DNA from: Gemmatimonadaceae bacterium
GTDB taxonomy: Bacteria; Gemmatimonadota; Gemmatimonadetes; Gemmatimonadales; Gemmatimonadaceae
Length of the DNA: 14,051 nucleotides
NCBI GenBank assembly: GCA_013816695.1
Contig: JACDDZ010000019.1
Coordinates: 1-14,051 of the forward strand
Reading direction: 5' to 3'
Below the pieces are notes generated by a model, which was not told where the DNA came from, made no database searches, and saw only the letters and a list, made by a program, of their open reading frames with translations. Shown here one piece after another: positions 1 through 8,464 of the stretch. How positions within the stretch are numbered: position 1 is the stretch's first letter; every line of letters begins with the position of its first letter. Made by a program: the position numbers and the translations under genes.

Positions 1-1034
1 GCTGGCCTTTTTTCAAATCGGGATCGCTATTTCCCGCTAATGCAATTGCTGTCGATCTCGGAACGGCCAACACCCTCATCTATGTAAAAGGTGAGGGCAT
101 CGTGCTGAACGAGCCCTCTGTCGTCGCCCTCGATCGCGAGACGAAAAAAATCAAGGGTGTTGGCTTGGAAGCCAAGCGCATGCTCGGACGCACGCCGGAA
201 GGAATCATTGCGGTGCGCCCGATGAAGGACGGCGTCATCGCCGACTTCGATGTTACCGAAAAAATGCTGCGCTACTTTCTCGCGCTCATCATCGAGAACC
301 ACGTGTTCAAGGTGAAGCCGCGTGTGATCGTCTGTGTTCCCAGTGGAATCACCGAAGTAGAGAAGCGCGCAGTCCGTGACTCCGCACTTGGTGCAGGCGC
401 AAAAGAAGTGTTCATGGTCGCGGAGCCCATGGCGGCTGCCATTGGCGTAGGTCTGCCGGTTGAAACGCCGACAGGCAACATGGTGATTGACATCGGCGGC
501 GGCACTACTGAAATCGCTGTCATCGCGCTTTCCGGAATCGTGAGCGACACTTCGATTCGTACGGGTGGCGACGAGCTGGACACGGCGATTGTTCAATTCA
601 TGCGCAAGAATTACAACCTGCTGATTGGTGAGAGCACCGCCGAGCAGGTGAAGATCCAGATTGGAAGCGCTGCATCGGTCGGGGAAGAGCGTGAGATGGA
701 TGTGAAGGGTCGCGATCTCGTTTCCGGAATCCCGAAAACTGTTCGTGTGCATTCGACCGAGATTCGCGAGGCAGTGCAGGAGCCCATTATGCAGATCGTT
801 GACGCCGTAAGGCGTGCCCTCGAAATCACGCCGCCGGAGCTTGCAGCCGACATCGTGGATCGCGGTATCGTCATGACAGGCGGAGGGGCCCTGATAAGGG
901 GGCTCGATGTTCTTTTGAGCCAGGAGACCGGACTTCCGATTCATGTCGATGAGGATCCACTCACATGCGTTGTGCGCGGCACGGGCCGCATCCTCGACGA
1001 CGAGGAAAAGTACTGGTCTGTTCTCTCCACCTGA
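1..1034 (+). CDS. mreB: Rod shape-determining protein MreB (5' partial)
   Basis: Bacterial actin homologue. It polymerises on ATP under the inner membrane and positions the elongasome that inserts lateral-wall peptidoglycan. The reading frame is open from base 3 (first residues WPFFKSGS), so the start codon lies just upstream of the window; from known MreB lengths only a few residues are missing. 343 residues are visible, close to full family length. The phosphate-1 loop [15 protein letters not shown], the phosphate-2 region [14 protein letters not shown] and the adenosine-site [13 protein letters not shown] are all present. The stop is TGA at 1032-1034, and mreC starts 15 bases later, as expected for an mre operon. 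I see no anomaly. A long open frame on the opposite strand is a shadow. Confidence 0.97.
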
Positions 1035-1049
1035 GGCCGGGACTGACAA

Positions 1050-2180
1050 GTGGCGAGACCAGGGCGCAGTAACCCACGACTTGACCTGATAATTCTGGCG
1101 GTGTGCGTTGCACTCGCCGTCATCACACGTGTACTACCCGGCTCGCTTCGGATGCCGATGGCGTCCGGCATGCGCCGAACCGTTCTCGCTCCGCTCGTGA
1201 TGCTGCAGGAACGCTCCGAGCTGTCGAGACGCGCACTAATTCTCAGTGCACCAATCACGCAGGCGCGCGACAGCGTGACCATGCGCGCCCTTACGGTCGC
1301 CAGCCTCGAAGCAGAAAACGACAGGCTCCGCCAGCTCATCGGTCTTGGCGCTCGGCTCAAGTGGGGGTTCGCTCCCGCCGAAGCCCTTCACGGGAAGGGA
1401 GTTCGTGACGTGACGACGCTAACGCTAACGGCCGGATCCAACGCCGGCGTGGGGCGCATGAGTCCTGTCGTTTCGGCTGAAGGGCTGGTGGGCGTCGTTG
1501 AGAGTGTGGATCCCACAATGAGCCAGGCGCTCTTCTGGACGCATCCTGATTTTCGCGTGAGCGCGATGACCGAAGATGCGAGCGCATTTGGAATTGTGCA
1601 GGCACACGCGCCGAGCGCGACGTCTGCGTACATGATGGAACTGCGCGGTGTTCCGTTCAGGACGAATCTCGCGGCCGGAGCACTGGTGATTTCGTCCGGA
1701 CTTGGTGGAGTGTGGCCGCGGGGAATTCCGATTGGGCGTATTGTGCAGGAGATCAAGACATCGGAAGCGTGGGCGCGCACATATCTCGTGCGTCCGGCGG
1801 TATTTCCGGCAGACGTTACGACCGTGATGATTCTCAGGCTCGATCGAGGCGCCAAGGGTCTCGACAATGTCTGGACGTCGGCTGCGGCTATCACTGCGGC
1901 AACGAACCGCATCATTGGTGCTGGAGACTCGCTGGCGAGAACTGCCGCGTTGGCTGAGGCGGCTGCACGTCGTGCAAGTGTGACTGCTGATTCGGTGCGC
2001 GCAGCCAACGGCGGTGTGACACCGACGCCTCCGACTGGCGGACTCATACAAGTTCCGCGTCCGCGTCCGCGGCCACGTCCTGTTGATTCGACAGCCACCC
2101 AGTCGGATACGCCGCGCGTGCTTCAGGTTCCGCCCACAGGCAGCGACTCGCTTACAACACGTCCGGGAGCAGTGCGATGA
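1050..2180 (+). CDS. mreC: Rod shape-determining protein MreC
   Basis: Bitopic inner-membrane protein whose periplasmic part scaffolds PBP2-RodA in lateral wall synthesis. The start is GTG 1050, with a weak purine stretch (GAGG, 1033-1036) upstream. Order in the 376 residues: short basic N-terminus; one membrane helix at about residues 11-27; a helical, probably coiled-coil stretch at about 68-97 (ASLEAENDRLRQLIGL); the MreC beta-barrel domain at about 105-265, with family-like segments such as LTAGSNAGVGRMSPVV and GLVGVVESV; then a tail of about 110 residues rich in Ala, Pro, Thr and Arg, including a Pro-Arg repeat at residues 336-344. The tail lies beyond the conserved domain and is probably disordered. 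The stop overlaps mreD by 4 bases. Confidence 0.95.
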   Translation: MARPGRSNPRLDLIILAVCVALAVITRVLPGSLRMPMASGMRRTVLAPLVMLQERSELSRRALILSAPITQARDSVTMRALTVASLEAENDRLRQLIGLGARLKWGFAPAEALHGKGVRDVTTLTLTAGSNAGVGRMSPVVSAEGLVGVVESVDPTMSQALFWTHPDFRVSAMTEDASAFGIVQAHAPSATSAYMMELRGVPFRTNLAAGALVISSGLGGVWPRGIPIGRIVQEIKTSEAWARTYLVRPAVFPADVTTVMILRLDRGAKGLDNVWTSAAAITAATNRIIGAGDSLARTAALAEAAARRASVTADSVRAANGGVTPTPPTGGLIQVPRPRPRPRPVDSTATQSDTPRVLQVPPTGSDSLTTRPGAVR

Positions 2181-2665
2181 ACTGGGGTAGCATTGTCCGC
2201 GGGCTGATCAGCTTCGTAATCCTTGTAGTTCTGCACTACACGCTCCGTCCGCTGCTTGGCTGGCGCGCGCCGATCGACTTCCTGCTCATTGCCGTGCTGC
2301 TGCTTTCCATCCGGGTGCGGCCCGGCGCTGCTGCGATCCTGGGATTCATTGTCGGGCTGATTGCAGACTCGCTCACGCCCGACTCGCTGGGAGCCGGCGC
2401 AATTGCGATGACTGTTGTCGCGTACATGGCGTCCTGGCTCAAGGCCGTATTCTTTGCCGACAACCTCGCGCTCAACGCTTTCTTTTTCTTTGTCGGCAAA
2501 TGGATGTTCGACATCATTTACTTCGCGGGTGAGCAGAGGCTCGAGGGAGCCCAGCTCATTCAGCAGGTATTTCTCTGGTCACCGTTGTCCGCAGCCGCGA
2601 CTGCGGTTGCCGGGGTTCTTCTCATCGTGATGATGCGTCCGTTGCTCGAGCCGTCACAAGCGTGA
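2177..2665 (+). CDS. mreD: Rod shape-determining protein MreD
   Basis: Small polytopic inner-membrane subunit of the elongasome, thought to modulate MreC-PBP2 activation. The 162 residues are almost entirely hydrophobic, with about five membrane segments: around 8-25, 33-50, 52-65, 74-115 (more than one pass) and 130-152. The stretch GLIADSLTPDSLGAGAIAM at about residues 60-78 matches the conserved MreD pattern of a Gly-rich turn with Asp followed by Leu-Gly. The start ATG 2177 overlaps the mreC stop (ATGA); GGGAG at 2165-2169 is a plausible ribosome site. The stop overlaps the mrdA start (GTGA). The family is poorly conserved in sequence, so identification rests on motif, topology and position together. 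Confidence 0.93.
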   Translation: MNWGSIVRGLISFVILVVLHYTLRPLLGWRAPIDFLLIAVLLLSIRVRPGAAAILGFIVGLIADSLTPDSLGAGAIAMTVVAYMASWLKAVFFADNLALNAFFFFVGKWMFDIIYFAGEQRLEGAQLIQQVFLWSPLSAAATAVAGVLLIVMMRPLLEPSQA

Positions 2666-4431
2666 GCTTCCATCCGAACGACATTGCCCGCCGGACAAGA
2701 CTGAGCTCCATTGCGCTCGCAATCGGCTTCGTTGGATTGCTGACTGCGTTCTTCAGGGCCCAGGTTCTCGACAACGCGAAGTATGCGATGCAGTCGGAAG
2801 AAAACCGGCTGCGCTCCATTCCGGTGCCTGCGCCCCGCGGAATCATTTACGATCTGCGCGGCGACATCATAGCGGAGAACCTGCCGGGCTATAGTGTTTC
2901 CATACTTTCGCCGCGTGTTGATTCGCTGAGGGCCACGTTGGGGAGACTGAGCGCGATCATCCCGGTCAGCCCGCGTGAGATCGAGAACGCAGTGCGCCGT
3001 TTCCGCCGGGCGCCGAATCGCCCGACAGTGGTTCTCGCAGACGCGTCCATCGATGTGGTTTCAGTGCTGGAAGAGCACCGGCTGGATTATCCGCAGATGA
3101 TCATTCAGTCGGTCCCCAAGCGGTACTACCCGGATGGAGCGCTGGTAGGATCGTTCGTGGGATACACCGGCGAAATCACCGAAGCTGAATTGAACTTGCC
3201 CAAGTACGCGGGCTACAAGCCAGGTCAGCAGGTTGGTAAGGGCGGACTCGAGAAAGAGTACGAAGCCATCCTGCATGGAAAGGAAGGCGTGAAGTTCGAC
3301 GAGGTCGATGCACGAGGAAGGCCTGTTCGGACGAGCAGCATGCGTCCCGACATCGCACCTGTAAGTGCGCCCTCGATGAAGACCAACATCGACATGAAGC
3401 TGCAGAAGCAGGTAGCTGCAATTTTCTCAGATACCTTGTTTGGTGGCGCGATCGCGATGGACCCGAAGACGGGCGCCGTGCTGGCACTGTACAGCAATCC
3501 GACCTTTGATCCCAACCGGTTCACAGGCGGAATTCCGGTTGACTACTGGAAAGAGCTGAACACTAATCCGAAGAAGCCGCTCTTCAACAAGGTTATTCAG
3601 GGCACTTATCCACCCGCATCTACATACAAGCTTGCTACTGCGACGATTGCGCTCCAGAACAAGCTGGTGCGACTTGATGAGCACATGCCAATCTCGTGTG
3701 GCGGAGGAATGCAGTATGGGCGTCGTTACTTCAGGTGCTGGGAGAAGCGTGGCCACGGAAGCCTGAACTTGCAGGGTGCCATCGAGAAATCCTGTGACGT
3801 TTATTTCTACCAGCTTGGAATTCGAGTGGGAGTTGCAAATCTTGTTGCCGGTGGAATCGGGCTCGGCATGCGAGAGAAGTCGGGTATCGACCTGCCGAAC
3901 GAATACTCGCCCGTTTTCCCTTACAAGGATGTGAAGGAGTACTACAATCGAAAGTATGGTGCCGGGAACTGGAGTGCGTCTGAGGCTTTGAACCTGTCGA
4001 TCGGGCAGGGGAATAATTCTCAGACGGTCGCGAACATGGCAAAGTTTTATAGTGCGCTTGCAACCGATGGTAAGAGTTCCCGGCCGTATCTCGTGAATCG
4101 GCCGCCGGAACGGAAGCAGATTCTCAATCTTCAAACGGCTCAGCTGCTGCACATTCGTGAGGCGCTCGCCGGCGTGGTTTCGTCGCGCGGTACCGCAGGC
4201 GGTTCTGCGATTCAGGGATTGGTTATCGCGGGAAAAACCGGGACGGCACAGAATGGAACCCCCGTCGACCACGCATGGTTCGTTGGATTTGCACCAGCGG
4301 ACGATCCAAAGATTCTCGTTGCTGTGTTCCTCGAGTTCGGCCATCACGGCTGGTCTGCGGCGCGCGTAGCATCGCGCATCATGGGTTTCTACACTGGGAA
4401 ACTTCCGGCTGAAGTCGTAGTTACCGAATGA
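2662..4431 (+). CDS. mrdA: Penicillin-binding protein 2, elongation transpeptidase
   Basis: Class B penicillin-binding protein that cross-links peptidoglycan during cylindrical growth, anchored in the inner membrane with its catalytic domain in the periplasm. Among 589 residues: membrane anchor at about 15-31; pedestal/dimerisation domain at about 50-230 (PAPRGIIYDLRGDIIAENLPG is the typical class B entry motif); transpeptidase domain from about 240. All three catalytic motifs are visible: STYK (nucleophile Ser320, Lys323), SCD (377-379; SxD is the usual PBP2 form) and KTG (525-527). Cys346, Cys359, His365 and Cys378 are spaced like the metal site reported in PBP2 of some Gram-negatives. The start GTG 2662 overlaps the mreD stop; the stop overlaps rodA. 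The SxD motif and the neighbouring rodA separate it from the divisome enzyme FtsI. Confidence 0.97.
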   Translation: MSFHPNDIARRTRLSSIALAIGFVGLLTAFFRAQVLDNAKYAMQSEENRLRSIPVPAPRGIIYDLRGDIIAENLPGYSVSILSPRVDSLRATLGRLSAIIPVSPREIENAVRRFRRAPNRPTVVLADASIDVVSVLEEHRLDYPQMIIQSVPKRYYPDGALVGSFVGYTGEITEAELNLPKYAGYKPGQQVGKGGLEKEYEAILHGKEGVKFDEVDARGRPVRTSSMRPDIAPVSAPSMKTNIDMKLQKQVAAIFSDTLFGGAIAMDPKTGAVLALYSNPTFDPNRFTGGIPVDYWKELNTNPKKPLFNKVIQGTYPPASTYKLATATIALQNKLVRLDEHMPISCGGGMQYGRRYFRCWEKRGHGSLNLQGAIEKSCDVYFYQLGIRVGVANLVAGGIGLGMREKSGIDLPNEYSPVFPYKDVKEYYNRKYGAGNWSASEALNLSIGQGNNSQTVANMAKFYSALATDGKSSRPYLVNRPPERKQILNLQTAQLLHIREALAGVVSSRGTAGGSAIQGLVIAGKTGTAQNGTPVDHAWFVGFAPADDPKILVAVFLEFGHHGWSAARVASRIMGFYTGKLPAEVVVTE

Positions 4432-5681
4432 ACCTCGCGCGGCGAATTGTCCCGGATCTTCAGCTCCTTACGATAGCGGGGCTGCTCTCACTTTACGGCG
4501 TAGCGATGGTGTACTCCGCCGGCCAGACGGACACCCCAACCGCAGTCGCCGGCGTCTACAAGTCACAGATGCTCTGGCTCGGGCTCGGCATGCTCGGCGC
4601 CTACTTCATCAGCCGCTCATCGGTCCGCTTCATCGAGTGGATGACCTGGCCCTTCTATTTTCTCTCTCTCGTCCTGCTCGCACTGACCCTCGTGATTGGA
4701 ACGGGTGCAGGAACGGCAGCGGGTACCAAGAGCTGGATTGCGATCGGCGGTATTCGACTTGGACAACCGTCGGAGCTCGCCAAGCTCACAGTTGTGCTCG
4801 CGCTCGCCAGTCTTCTGTCCAAGCGCCGCGATCCCCCGAAGTCCCTGATGGACCTCTGGAAACCTGCGCTTACCGTGCTGGTTCCCTGGGTGATCATCAT
4901 GCTCCAGCCTGATCTGGGCACCGGAATCGTGTTCATCGGAATCTTCTTTGGCATGCTTTACTGGGCTGGCGTTTCCTGGCCTTTGCTGCTGCTACTGGGA
5001 AGCCCGGCTGTCAGCCTGATTCTCTCGTTCAGCACTGGCGTCTGGGGCGCATGGTTCCTGGTGTTGCTCGCACTCGTCCTCTGGTACAAGCCCTACCTGA
5101 TCGAAGGCATTGTGCTGGTTGTGATGAACATTGTCACAGGCGTGGTCGCGCCCTTGATGTGGGAAAAGCTCGCGCCATACCAGCAGAAGCGACTACTCGT
5201 CTTCCTCGATCCTGCCGCGGATGCGCGAGGTTCGGGTTACCACGTGATTCAGTCCAAGGTCGCTATTGGATCGGGCGGCTGGTTGGGAAAGGGCTTTACG
5301 ATGGGAACGCAAAAGCGGCTGGCGTTTCTTCCTGAACAGCACACTGACTTCATTTTCTCGGTCGTTGGTGAGGAGCTGGGATTCATCGGCGTCACAGTCG
5401 CGCTAACGCTATTCCTTTTTCTTTTCCTGAGAATCACCAAGGTCGCGAGCAGGGCCAACGATTCTTTCTCAAGTCTTGCTGCGTTCGGCTTGATGGCATC
5501 CTGGTTCGTCCACGTGCTCGTCAATGTCGGCATGACTTTGAACCTGATGCCTATTACTGGTATTCCGCTGCCGTTTTTTAGTTACGGCGGGTCGTTCATG
5601 CTTGCGTCGTGGCTGGCGATTGGGGTGCTTATGCGGATCGCGGGAGAGGGGAAGGGACGGGCTGTTTTTACGGGGCACTGA
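4428..5681 (+). CDS. rodA: Peptidoglycan glycosyltransferase RodA (SEDS family)
   Basis: SEDS-family glycosyltransferase that polymerises lipid II into glycan strands in complex with PBP2. 417 residues with about ten membrane helices. Family landmarks: GTKSWIAIGGIRLGQPSELAKL (about 99-120) including the Gln-Pro-Ser-Glu turn; QPDLGTGIVF (160-169); the large extracytoplasmic loop with FLDPAADARGSGYHVIQSK (about 259-277), holding the Asp261/Asp265 region where the catalytic Asp of SEDS proteins lies; HTDFIFSVVGEELGF (305-319); and the C-terminal PLPFFSYGGS (381-390). Its place directly after mrdA (ATGA overlap) argues for RodA rather than FtsW. It ends the elongasome block: the stop is 14 bases before the left arm of the inverted-repeat cassette, and no T-tailed terminator hairpin is visible. 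Confidence 0.97.
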   Translation: MNLARRIVPDLQLLTIAGLLSLYGVAMVYSAGQTDTPTAVAGVYKSQMLWLGLGMLGAYFISRSSVRFIEWMTWPFYFLSLVLLALTLVIGTGAGTAAGTKSWIAIGGIRLGQPSELAKLTVVLALASLLSKRRDPPKSLMDLWKPALTVLVPWVIIMLQPDLGTGIVFIGIFFGMLYWAGVSWPLLLLLGSPAVSLILSFSTGVWGAWFLVLLALVLWYKPYLIEGIVLVVMNIVTGVVAPLMWEKLAPYQQKRLLVFLDPAADARGSGYHVIQSKVAIGSGGWLGKGFTMGTQKRLAFLPEQHTDFIFSVVGEELGFIGVTVALTLFLFLFLRITKVASRANDSFSSLAAFGLMASWFVHVLVNVGMTLNLMPITGIPLPFFSYGGSFMLASWLAIGVLMRIAGEGKGRAVFTGH

Positions 5682-5695
5682 GGGAAGTGCGGCTG

Positions 5696-5753
5696 GCCAT
5701 TTCGTAGGGTTGGGCCGTTGGTCGTTTTCTGTTGTCTGTTATCCGTTGTCTGA
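5696..5753 (+). repeat. Left arm of the 58-bp inverted repeat
   Basis: Pairs with 6180-6237 read on the opposite strand. Positions 5696-5736 (41 bases) are identical to the complement of 6197-6237. Mismatches follow at 5737, 5739, 5741, 5742 and 5751, after which similarity fades. From 5709 to 5757 the arm reads as seven consecutive degenerate heptamers with consensus YGTTGTC. The stop codon of the internal gene (TAA on the minus strand, 5739-5741) lies in this arm, so the last four residues of that protein (SDNG) come from repeat sequence. Confidence 0.95.
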
Positions 5754-6140
5754 TAACGACGACCGCTCTTTGAGCCGCTTTGATAGGCCGTGGAGCATCA
5801 TTCGAACGCCGGTTAACTCTGTCGTCGCGCGGTGATAGTCGGCGTCCGATATTCCTTTGACATCGCGCGCAATCATCAAGTGGTTCTCGAGCTCCGCGGC
5901 GGAGCCAATTGAATAACCGACGAACCGCGCAAAGTCCTTCGGCGTTTTCTGAACACAACCTTCAGCAAGGTTCGCCGGGATGGACATCGCAGCCCTGACC
6001 ATCTGGCTTCTAAGCGGGGCATACACACCGCCCCGGATTTTCTTGGCGATTTGGTCAACGTCTATGGAAAGGGCATGCGCCTTATTCCACACACGCAATT
6101 TTCGGAACTCACCCATCAATGCAGTCTGACTACGTCCCAT
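5739..6140 (-). CDS. Four-helix-bundle protein, 23S rRNA-IVS (S23) family
   Basis: 133 residues, one to two dozen more than typical members of this small family. Recognisable features: FRKLRVWNKAHALSI (12-26, the family's N-terminal Phe/Leu-x-Val-Trp-x-Lys-Ala helix); APLRSQMVRAAMSIPANLAEG (41-61, the signature Leu-x-x-Gln-x-x-Arg-Ala-x-x-Ser-Ile-Pro-x-Asn-x-Ala-Glu-Gly); a third helix at about 67-93 with the conserved Ala-Glu-Leu-Glu; and a fourth at about 98-126. Members form homopentameric four-helix bundles, and one relative (Avd) binds nucleic acid and reverse transcriptase in diversity-generating retroelements; the role of stand-alone copies is unknown. No reverse transcriptase or template repeat is in this window. 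The first ATG (6140) has a weak GGTGATGG-like purine stretch upstream; a second in-frame ATG at 6116 starts right before the family homology and is an equally possible start. It is the only minus-strand gene here. Confidence 0.85.
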   Translation of the reverse strand: MGRSQTALMGEFRKLRVWNKAHALSIDVDQIAKKIRGGVYAPLRSQMVRAAMSIPANLAEGCVQKTPKDFARFVGYSIGSAAELENHLMIARDVKGISDADYHRATTELTGVRMMLHGLSKRLKERSSLSDNG

Positions 6141-6179
6141 GATTGTCCATCACCCAATCCACACGCGCTCCATCAATTC

Positions 6180-6237
6180 TCGGACAACGGTCACCGGACA
6201 ACAGAAAACGACCAACGGCCCAACCCTACGAAATGGC
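6180..6237 (-). repeat. Right arm of the 58-bp inverted repeat
   Basis: Inverted partner of 5696-5753. Read on the minus strand it shows the same heptamer register (units at 6217-6211, 6210-6204, 6203-6197, 6196-6190 and 6189-6183), the last agreeing with consensus CGTTGTC. Its inner edge is 39 bases upstream of the ATG of the internal minus-strand gene, so a minus-strand transcript covering both arms could fold into one long stem with the gene in the loop. The outer edge is 83 bases before the accD start. Confidence 0.95.
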
Positions 6238-6273
6238 ATACCGCCGTTAAAAGAATTCGCTTAGCCCGCCTTA

Positions 6274-6294
6274 AAGAGGCATAACTTGCCTCTT
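6274..6294 (+). other. Perfect 8-bp hairpin in the accD leader
   Basis: AAGAGGCA (6274-6281), loop TAACT, then TGCCTCTT (6287-6294). The stem is perfect and ends 26 bases before the accD ATG. It is not followed by a T-run on the + strand (CCCCTC follows), so it is not a convincing terminator for + strand transcripts. Read on the minus strand the stem ends in a short T-run (CTCTTTAAGG), so it could weakly stop antisense transcription entering the cassette. It may instead be a leader structure affecting accD translation, because no clear ribosome site lies between it and the start. Confidence 0.45.
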
Positions 6295-6320: not shown

Positions 6321-7184
6321 ATGGCCTGGTTCAAGAAAGAAAAAAAACCCCGCGTACCCCGTCACGAGAAGCACGAGATCCCGCCGGATGCTTGGGAGAA
6401 GTGCGACAAGTGCGGGCACACTGACATTCGCGAAAAGTTCGTTCGCAACCTGAACGTCTGTCCCAATTGCGAATTTCATCGCCGAATTCGCGCCATCGAG
6501 TACGCGAACATTCTTCTTGACGAGGGCACTCTCGAGGAAACCGAGCTCGACATCAGGTCCAAGGATCCGCTGCATTTCCCGGAGTATCCAGCGCGCTTGA
6601 AGAAGGCGATTGGGGCGGCAGGTGATGCGGACGCGATTCTTACATTCATAGGACAGATGGATGGCGCGCCGGTTTGCCTGGCGGTGATGGACTTTGCGTT
6701 CATGGGCGGATCGATGGGATCGGTTGTCGGTGAAAAAATCGCGCGGCTTGGACAGCGGGCGGTCGAGCGCAAGTATCCGCTCATCATCGTCTCCGCATCC
6801 GGGGGCGCGCGCATGCAGGAAGGTGTGCTGTCACTGATGCAGATGGCCAAAGCGGCTGCGATGTTGTCGGAGCTGGCAGAGCGGCGCGTGCCCTACGTTT
6901 CCATCCTCACGAATCCGACGACAGGTGGCGTGAGCGCGAGCTATGCAATGCTGGGTGATGCGATCATTGCAGAACCGGGCGCAGTCATAGGTTTCGCGGG
7001 ACCGCGGGTGATCAAACAGACGATCGGTCAGGACCTGCCGGAGGGTTTCCAGACCGCCGAGTTCCTTATGGAGCACGGGATGCTCGACGCTGTAGTGCAT
7101 CGCAAGGAGCTCAAGAAGACAGTGGGGCAGCTGCTCCGCCACATGAGCGGGAAGCCTGCGGCGGCAGGTTGGCAGCCGGTCTGA
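6321..7184 (+). CDS. accD: Acetyl-CoA carboxylase carboxyltransferase subunit beta
   Basis: Beta subunit of the carboxyltransferase that moves CO2 from carboxybiotin to acetyl-CoA, giving malonyl-CoA for fatty acid synthesis; it works with AccA, which is not in this window. 287 residues, normal length. The N-terminal zinc ribbon is intact: Cys28-x2-Cys31-x15-Cys47-x2-Cys50. The crotonase-fold core follows, with SASGGARMQEG (158-168), NPTTGGVSASYAM (198-210) and GFAGPRVI (224-231). The start ATG 6321 is supported by the Lys-rich MAWFKKEKKP N-terminus common in AccD; no strong ribosome site is visible (TTTCGAAA precedes it). It opens the second block and is followed by folC, an adjacency also found in Escherichia coli. 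Confidence 0.97.
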   Translation: MAWFKKEKKPRVPRHEKHEIPPDAWEKCDKCGHTDIREKFVRNLNVCPNCEFHRRIRAIEYANILLDEGTLEETELDIRSKDPLHFPEYPARLKKAIGAAGDADAILTFIGQMDGAPVCLAVMDFAFMGGSMGSVVGEKIARLGQRAVERKYPLIIVSASGGARMQEGVLSLMQMAKAAAMLSELAERRVPYVSILTNPTTGGVSASYAMLGDAIIAEPGAVIGFAGPRVIKQTIGQDLPEGFQTAEFLMEHGMLDAVVHRKELKKTVGQLLRHMSGKPAAAGWQPV

Positions 7185-8464
7185 GTGAGTATCAGAGCGC
7201 AATAAACTCGCTCTTCGCGCGAGTCACGGGCGCGACAAAGTTTGGCCTCGAGCGCACGCAGAAGCTTCTCGACAGGCTCGGGAATCCACACGGGACGTTT
7301 CCGTCAATTCATGTTGCCGGCACCAACGGAAAGGGAAGCGTCGTTGCTACGCTCGATGCACTTTTTACCGCCAGTGGGCTCCGTGTTGGCCGATATACCT
7401 CGCCGCACCTTATAGATTTTCGCGAGAGAATGGCCGTTGGTCGTTTTCTGATATCCGAAGAAGCCGTTGTCCGCTTTCTTCGGGACAACCAGGAGTTTGC
7501 AGAGCAGATCGGGGCGACGTTCTTCGAGATTACTACTGCGATGGCGTTTGACCACTTTGCGCGAAGCGAAGTTGACATCGCCGTTATTGAGACGGGACTG
7601 GGTGGGAGACTCGACTCAACAAATGTTCTTGGGCCCATCGCTTCAGTTGTCACATCCATCGGATTGGATCACACTGACATGCTCGGTGAGTCGCTCGAAG
7701 AAATTGCCGGGGAAAAGGCGGGCATCTTCAAGGCGGGTGCGGCAGCGATTATCGGAGAACCCGACCCTTCGATCGCAGAATTCCTGGCACTCAGAGCCGC
7801 ATCCGCCGGCGCCACACACATAACCATCCTAGACAACGCAGTTCAAATAGAAAATGTCGAAGTCACCAGCACCGGCACGACCTTCGACCTGCGCGGCGAA
7901 CTCTCCGGTAATTTCTCCACCCCGCTGATTGGACAACACCAGGCCCGGAATACTGCTATCGCGCTGTTAACCGCAGTGCGTCGTTCATCAATGCAGTCGC
8001 AGTTGGAGATCTCTAACGCAGAGATTAATCAGGCTCTGAGCACAATCACCCTGCCTGGACGATTCCAGCGGTTCGAGAAGTACATATTCGACGTAGCCCA
8101 CAATCCGGATGGCGCCCATGCACTTGCCAATGCCATCAGGGAAGTGGACCCGGTTCATCCCAGGACCGCGCTCGTGGCCGTGCTTGGCGACAAGGACTGG
8201 AAGGGCATCATGCGTGAGCTCGTGACAGCTGTTGACCGGCTGTTCATCACCATGCCGCCAGACGCGCCAGCTGGCCGCGAGTTCGACCCGAACGAAGCTT
8301 ACGAGTACGCCATTTCCCAGAACTGGAACGCGGAACTGGACTCGAACTTCGACGATGCCATGACCAGAATCCAGAAACGGTGTGGGACTGTGGTTATCAC
8401 AGGGTCATTTCACACTGTGGGAGCTGCACTAAAACGCTTGCTGAGGTCTCCAATAGCGGGGTAA
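7169..8464 (+). CDS. folC: Bifunctional folylpolyglutamate/dihydrofolate synthase
   Basis: Mur-ligase-family enzyme that adds glutamate to folates (and to dihydropteroate in bifunctional members), using ATP. 431 residues from the TTG at 7169. Landmarks: ATP loop GTNGKGS (51-57), YTSPHLIDFRER (77-87), ETGLGGRLDSTN (141-152), SIGLDHTDMLG (163-173), and the late FDVAHNPDG (307-315). No in-frame ATG or GTG lies near the family's usual N-terminus, so the start is TTG 7169 (16-base overlap with accD) or CTG 7181 (4-base overlap); both are unusual and imply coupling to accD. The usual Glu-Arg-Ile-x-Val-Asn/Asp-Gly-x-Pro-Ile-Ser segment reads ERMAVGRFLIS (86-96) here and coincides with a match to the inverted-repeat arms of the upstream cassette. 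The frame stays open and catalytic motifs are intact, so the gene is probably functional. Confidence 0.94.
   Translation: MAAGLSEYQSAINSLFARVTGATKFGLERTQKLLDRLGNPHGTFPSIHVAGTNGKGSVVATLDALFTASGLRVGRYTSPHLIDFRERMAVGRFLISEEAVVRFLRDNQEFAEQIGATFFEITTAMAFDHFARSEVDIAVIETGLGGRLDSTNVLGPIASVVTSIGLDHTDMLGESLEEIAGEKAGIFKAGAAAIIGEPDPSIAEFLALRAASAGATHITILDNAVQIENVEVTSTGTTFDLRGELSGNFSTPLIGQHQARNTAIALLTAVRRSSMQSQLEISNAEINQALSTITLPGRFQRFEKYIFDVAHNPDGAHALANAIREVDPVHPRTALVAVLGDKDWKGIMRELVTAVDRLFITMPPDAPAGREFDPNEAYEYAISQNWNAELDSNFDDAMTRIQKRCGTVVITGSFHTVGAALKRLLRSPIAG
7432..7473 (+). repeat. Repeat-arm-like segment inside folC
   Basis: Bases 7432-7450 (GGCCGTTGGTCGTTTTCTG) are identical to 5713-5731 of the left arm, and to the right arm on the minus strand. 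If one 7-base unit (5732-5738) is skipped, the match to the left arm continues to 7457 with a single mismatch. Against the right arm, similarity resumes further on at CCGTTGTCCG (7464-7473) with a 2-base gap. It encodes folC residues from about Ala89 to Arg102 (AVGRFLISEEAVVR) without breaking the frame. A 19-base identity by chance in a window of this size is very unlikely (I estimate about 1 in 100,000 from base counting), so common origin is probable. The direction of transfer is not shown by the sequence. Confidence 0.7.

Follow-up and report, generated by a model that had tools for sequence, protein, structure and literature searches.

A single S23 gene between inverted heptamer arms in a Gemmatimonadaceae contig, probably belonging to a widespread family of minimal mobile elements

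Intervening sequences (IVSs) of 23S rRNA that carry an S23 open reading frame, as in Coxiella and Leptospira, consist of one S23 gene with stem-forming terminal inverted repeats and are compact, the Coxiella IVS measuring 428 nt, with helix 45 being a common IVS site (PMC4990558). In the available text of that account, S23 proteins are described as having no known function, the origin and function of 23S IVSs are called unclear, and older ideas are cited in which IVSs are transposition remnants or mobile elements; S23 IVSs are thus already known and the idea of their mobility is old. Other described systems share single features with the locus reported here. MITEs and REP-type palindromes are short, palindromic, and present in many copies with ends common to a gene-bearing element (PMC10969869, the main text of which makes no mention of S23, four helix, intervening sequence, 23S, or heptamer). 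Geobacter metallireducens carries multicopy pairs of 7- to 8-nt tandem arrays on opposite strands, one class being heptamers, that are read as sites for global regulators (IHF/HU) in a main text without the terms "S23" or "four helix" (PMC2700814). Heptamer repeats in Beggiatoaceae and cyanobacteria have a 7-nt unit and are mostly intergenic, like the arms described below, but are mostly direct and built on one fixed motif, and the available text does not contain "S23" (PMC4679880).

The DNA analyzed here (the window) is a 14,051-nt stretch of a Gemmatimonadaceae contig, in which a 542-bp element occupies positions 5696..6237, the minus strand being the S23 sense strand. The element lies between a rodA/ftsW-family gene on its left (4428..5681, plus strand; PF01098, E 1e-92), to which its S23 gene is antisense, and accD on its right (6321..7184, plus strand; PF01039, E 3e-24; 80 relatives). 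Its gene (5739..6140, minus strand, 133 aa) encodes a four-helix-bundle protein that belongs to the S23/23S_rRNA_IVP family by both profile match and fold, matching PF05635 with an E value of 7e-26 (91 bits versus a curated cut-off of 33.8) and TIGR02436 with one of 5e-27. The left arm (5696..5756) is the 3' arm of the S23 gene and overlaps the last 18 nt of the coding sequence as listed, and the right arm (6177..6237), its inverted copy, is the 5' arm. In local alignment, 55 of 61 arm columns match (90%), the 41 outermost are identical, and 420 nt lie in between, giving an inverted-repeat score of 92, compared with 300 random 318-bp cores in related loci that scored at most 38 in 99% of cases and at most 40 overall. 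The original prediction of a single minus-strand S23 gene between inverted repeats is therefore borne out by the profile matches and the arm alignment; the repeats are real and identical over 41 outer bases, but they comprise 61 columns rather than the 58 bp first given. With complementary ends that form a long stem around an S23 open reading frame, in a place between rodA and accD rather than inside an rRNA gene, the unit is built like an IVS but does not occupy the place of one.

The remaining window genes that were scanned have housekeeping roles, with names partly inferred from Pfam domains: mreB, mreC, mreD, PBP, rodA, accD, folC, and guaA, together with hisS- and proS-like genes, a PLP decarboxylase, and a phosphoesterase. 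A small hairpin (AAGAGGC...GCCTCTT, found by eye) lies to the right of the element at 6274-6294, upstream of accD. Inside folC, positions 7432-7457 match the element's arm at 24 of 26 bases, 19 of them in a row; in the 15 relatives shown the codons at this point differ, often being NG.PI-like, and there is no indel. Chance looks unlikely as the source of this match, and the patch is possibly a copy of arm sequence in folC, or of folC sequence in the arm.

Armed S23 genes proved common in related genomes. PF05635 matches were found in 95 of 118 genomes from the family of relative G002, at 1-14 per genome. The S23 sample of 117 loci was assembled from 30 of the 45 matches of one search, 27 new loci, and 60 loci picked by hand among the best matches listed; 7 of the 117 lacked 600 bp on one side, leaving 110 to be scored. 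Inverted arms with a score of at least 40 flanked 91 of the 110 loci, and 79 scored at least 50, leaving 19 without arms at score 40. When flanks were swapped, pairing the 5' side of one locus with the 3' side of another, 1 of 330 combinations was armed. Cold-shock (CSD) genes, used as a small-gene control family in ten of these genomes, scored 17-26 at all 26 loci, one of 27 having been left out as a short partial match and two of the 26 having a short left flank. The architecture is conserved in the family, armed relatives having a median length of 591 bp (interquartile range, 561-632) and a median arm of 61 nt. Most S23 loci sampled in Gemmatimonadota have this stand-alone, armed form. The original prediction had presented the window copy as a possible undescribed class of RNA-protein element; its intergenic place and intact arms were upheld, but with 91 of 110 loci armed it is no exception.

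The arms themselves are inverted arrays of degenerate 7-mers, a feature that the original prediction did not mention. In the window, the degenerate heptamer array of the left arm starts at about 5713, and the inner part of the arm runs in sevens (GGTCGTT TTCTGTT GTCTGTT ATCCGTT ...), with a lag-7 autocorrelation of 0.50 (p = 0.0009 by shuffling) in the left arm and 0.46 in the right. Averaged over 88 arms, autocorrelation was 0.54 at lag 7 and 0.49 at lag 14, compared with 0.27-0.30 at the other lags from 3 to 15 and 0.24-0.27 at all lags in control flanks. The motifs vary by element and include AGTTGAG, GGGCGAC, CGGAAGC, GGTATCA, and GTGGGAC.

Not all S23 genes need have the same status. Eighteen of the 110 loci adjoin ychF (TIGR00092; L086, L106, L125, L135, L136, L173, L178, L180, L200, L202, L208, L210, L211, L212, L213, L214, L217, and L224), and 8 of these lack arms. 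The place beside ychF is thus a recurrent or settled one for S23, with arms often missing or lost, and because 10 of 18 loci are armed beside ychF compared with 81 of 92 elsewhere, some S23 genes may be settled host genes. Among 95 armed S23 loci with longest open reading frames taken as neighbors, S23 was antisense to a codirectional gene pair in 38 and sense in 17, a count that includes the ychF site, so that the loci are not independent.

Similarity between arms, computed between armed elements only, follows similarity between the genes that they enclose. Arms were homologous (alignment score of at least 35) in 7 of 7 armed pairs with at least 80% S23 identity, in a share of 0.41 of 32 pairs at 65-80%, 0.05 of 193 at 55-65%, and 0.01 of 670 at 45-55%, and in 0.00 (rounded) of 2115 and 1206 pairs below that. 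Four of the seven closest pairs (L123/L183, L083/L193, L096/L101, and L084/L096) are unrelated in both flanks, so close copies in unrelated surroundings share their arms. Of the other three, L125/L180 share one place, L166/L172 do so too but with opposite orientations, and L082/L171 have one flank in common, turned round. In the latter two cases, related S23 elements occur at orthologous places of G009 and G112 with their orientation reversed, and these turned copies may be inversions between the arms. The two arms of an element also change together: the 613 arm columns from 11 hand-picked close pairs comprised 446 without change, 41 with an identical change in both arms, 89 with a change in a single arm, and 37 of other kinds. 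With independent drift at the rate of single-arm change (about 7% per arm), only about 1 identical double change would be expected, or about eight if every change is counted; the arms are therefore copied from, or selected with, each other.

Arms related to those of one S23 element, L101, recur as short repeats across the genus of G002. A 17-nt core of the L101 arm (at most two mismatches) was found in 14 of the 19 genomes of this genus, with 44 copies in G126, 27 in G003, 26 in G068, 21 in G128, and 16 in G002, figures that count arms and hence up to two per palindrome or S23 element; the reversed pattern was found 0-2 times per genome. In G003, the contig with the only PF05635 match bears none of the 27 copies. 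Of 18 stretches read, 15 had the form of palindromes of 134-344 bp; the remaining three, L265-L267, did not, L265 and L266 having come in as flank matches. For two S23-less palindromes, L250 and L251, the match to an S23 element of G126 continues about 25 nt inward of the arm, which fits an origin by internal deletion.

The L107/L101 arm family shows filled and empty sites together with dispersed copies, as expected of a transposable element. At site A, G128 lacks the S23 element L107 (about 642 bp) and has 27 bp without a palindrome between the flanks. The same place holds the same insertion with an internal deletion in G001, an S23-less palindrome with related arms in G126, another S23 element cut by the contig end in G004, and a different palindrome in G045. 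At site B, G002 carries the palindrome L251, which all six relatives with both flanks matched (G001, G045, G123, G128, G126, and G004) lack; in G124 one flank was matched. No clean empty site was found at the L101 place in G001, which holds about 3.7 kb of other DNA. Terminator targeting was rejected as a rule, with terminator-like hairpins on 5 of 189 sides within 100 bp of the arms compared with 3 of 188 at 100-200 bp; site A adjoins a terminator-like hairpin seen by eye. Target-site duplication, a mark of DDE-type insertion sequences and MITEs, was not found in 83 elements (edge direct repeats of 3.67 versus 3.57 +/- 0.09 when permuted). The family differs from MITEs and REP palindromes in this respect and in that its gene-bearing partner encodes S23 and not a transposase. 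Read from genome comparison, in which many of the genomes are draft MAGs, these insertions indicate that the S23 family is probably mobile. The compact mobile unit originally proposed gains accordingly, with close S23 paralogues sharing arms and a sister element having an empty site.

The window copy itself was examined through the gap in which it lies. The 80 best AccD relatives of the window are 67-87% identical, and 79 of the 80 record titles name Gemmatimonadota or a member of it, Roseisolibacter among them. rodA and accD are both present at 77 of the 80 loci, with a gap of at most 130 bp in 52 of the 77 and no S23 gene in 75; only L030 and L036 hold one, divergent from the window gene and likewise on the minus strand. 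The S23 search added a further S23 gene in this gap, L222 in G116, with arms scoring 136. Because only two of the 77 gaps hold a (divergent) S23 gene and 52 are so short, the window S23 gene is not a vertically conserved one, and the comparison of this gap among relatives, proposed with the original prediction, came out in its favor. A search for the window arms elsewhere was proposed as well, and here the outcome was negative: no copy was found in the 118 relatives, 8 of which gave weak matches to the S23 coding part only. No relative is close enough to place the ends of the window copy. It looks young, given an open S23 frame and 41 identical outer bases, and is presumed to have the same history as the mobile S23 family, its own arms being without copies in the 118 relatives. 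Palindromes accumulate in the rodA-accD gap, which contains 13 of the 23 strong inverted repeats identified in 1.06 Mb of AccD loci, a sample chosen around accD so that nearly all loci include the gap. In three of the closest relatives (L001, 7432-7798; L003, 7383-7858; L004, 6412-6818), the gap holds a long inverted repeat without heptamer period or S23, which is an unrelated palindromic family.

The same anatomy extends beyond the phylum. Plasmid S23 relatives were mostly cyanobacterial, and among 25 plasmid loci (from 25 of the 46 plasmid records with S23) and 4 viral contigs, 19 of 29 were armed at a score of at least 40 and 10 were not, compared with 7 of 290 for swapped flanks. The arms of these 19 loci had autocorrelations of 0.66 at lag 7 and 0.68 at lag 14, with 0.28-0.39 at other lags. 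The four viral S23 loci, of which L313 and L314 look alike, came from a search of viral contigs with alignment A1; a search of viral contigs with P0006 gave no match, and no S23 was found in the phage records searched. On cyanobacterial plasmids, S23 lies between cas6 and cas4 in L226 and L230, between cas10 and a Cmr3-family gene in L232, and between two ribonucleotide reductase genes in L229. On plasmid AZO_p2 of Azospirillum lipoferum (L227), an Rfam match to bacterial LSU rRNA (292-3333) encloses the S23 gene, which is flanked by inverted arrays of AGAGGAC/GGATGAC-like heptamers. L227 is a 23S IVS built like the intergenic elements and so joins the two forms, an S23 gene inside 23S rRNA and heptamer arms; its insertion site is presumably helix 45. 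The idea of an IVS-like design outside rRNA is supported by an armed S23 gene between protein genes and by a heptamer-armed one in 23S rRNA.

The S23 protein is under purifying selection, with dN/dS values of 0.04-0.18 in 13 close pairs (14 were picked by hand and one gave no value), which argues that it works for something; it has no known catalytic domain, since Pfam finds PF05635 only. An AlphaFold2 model of the window protein (mean pLDDT, 92.5) has four helices and in Foldseek best matched the crystal structure of Xanthomonas S23, 2gsc (E 3e-6 to 7e-5; TMt 0.92-0.95), which was also the only sequence match in the PDB, followed by 2rld (E 1e-3 and up). Weaker matches (E 0.045 and up) were the Avd ring 4dwl and chains of the reverse-transcriptase complex of a diversity-generating retroelement (DGR). 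The Xanthomonas protein is reported to be a homopentameric ring (PMC4990558).

We consider the window unit to be probably one copy of a widespread minimal mobile family, in which a single gene for an Avd-like, ring-forming S23 protein lies between inverted arrays of about 7-nt repeats, with a total length of some 0.55-0.65 kb. The best reading of the related forms is that S23-less palindromes are nonautonomous derivatives and the rRNA IVS is one outcome of insertion, and the older idea of IVSs as transposition remnants or mobile elements is supported by the present data. How such a unit would move can be proposed only tentatively, and we hold the following mechanism to be conceivable more than probable. 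The arms would fold into a hairpin, in single-stranded DNA or RNA, to which the S23 ring would bind; host replication or repair enzymes, the choice of host enzymes being a guess, would then copy the hairpin into a new place. S23 would act in trans on the small S23-less palindromes, and an rRNA IVS would be an S23 element that had landed in rRNA. These units could constitute a class of minimal transposable element whose sole protein is an Avd-like four-helix-bundle ring, with no transposase or reverse transcriptase encoded, inverted heptamer ends that vary yet remain complementary, and host enzymes supplying the chemistry, a proposal for which we would claim slightly less than even chances. If it is true, a single system would unite "four helix bundle protein" genes with 23S IVSs and many heptamer palindromes. 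Heptamer structure, dispersal, and S23-less derivatives are absent from the available text of PMC4990558, and no description of heptamer arms, the usual intergenic form, or S23-less derivatives was found in the literature searched, which took in few subscription journals.

Alternatively, the unit may be an RNA element, in which selection would maintain the stem of the transcript, RNase III would cleave it, and the excised RNA would be bound or protected by S23, an idea already put forward for the 23S IVS. The minus-strand RNA of 5680-6260 folds at -264.6 kcal/mol, compared with -200.8 +/- 7.5 for 100 shuffles, a very stable fold (z -8.5); RNase III processes the stem of the Coxiella IVS (PMC4990558); and S23 resembles Avd in fold. 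G-U pairs, however, should be tolerated if an RNA stem is selected, and mismatches in 83 stems showed no excess of G-U (207) over A-C (189; p 0.39), which weakly suggests copying at the DNA level rather than RNA-stem selection. We therefore judge an RNA element unlikely as the main explanation, and RNase III processing of element transcripts may still happen.

A further alternative assigns the arms to the target, with S23 genes inserting into the tip of preexisting palindromes as IVSs do in rRNA helices. Palindromes of this kind exist, 20 of the 23 strong inverted repeats in the 1.06-Mb sample being without S23 and not all of them heptamer-armed, and the Azospirillum copy does lie inside 23S rRNA. 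Against a target origin, close S23 copies in unrelated surroundings carry the same arms, the empty site A of G128 is 27 bp without a palindrome, and the similarity of L250 and L251 to an S23 element continues inward of the arm, so that we regard it as improbable. Nearly as improbable, and slightly more so, is a retroelement in which S23 would work with a reverse transcriptase in trans, like Avd in DGRs. Avd and PF05635 are homologous (PMC10053308), and the Avd structures of DGRs (PDB 4dwl and 8ub7) resemble S23 with a TM score, normalized by target, of up to 0.88 at E 0.045, as do chains of the DGR reverse-transcriptase complex; yet Pfam found no reverse transcriptase among the window proteins scanned, RVT_1 occurs in 17 of 118 genomes (which may be incomplete) versus 95 of 118 for S23, and the S23-rich genomes G002, G009, G015, and G016 have neither an RVT_1 nor a Y1_Tnp match.

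The lack of Y1_Tnp in these four genomes also weighs against a REP/IS200-like system, in which a Y1 transposase would move the palindromes with S23 as a passenger. Such a system would be palindromic and without target duplication, as the S23 family is, but among the relatives Y1_Tnp was found in 22 of 118 genomes, by a search in which the palindrome-rich G003 and G126 were not shown, and we think this explanation very improbable. Least credible of all is an ordinary S23 gene beside a local palindrome such as a terminator pair, which would fit the failure to find the window arms in 118 relatives but not the prevalence of arms around S23, their absence around the CSD genes tested, or the lack of an S23 gene in most related rodA-accD gaps.

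In sum, a free, many-copy, heptamer-armed form of S23 with empty sites and S23-less derivatives is a possible source of IVSs. S23 elements may explain some inverted heptamer repeats so far taken as regulatory sites, and the family provides a system for testing whether they move, whether the hairpin is bound, and what the S23 ring does. The long-puzzling insert in bacterial ribosomes may have its explanation in such jumping elements.
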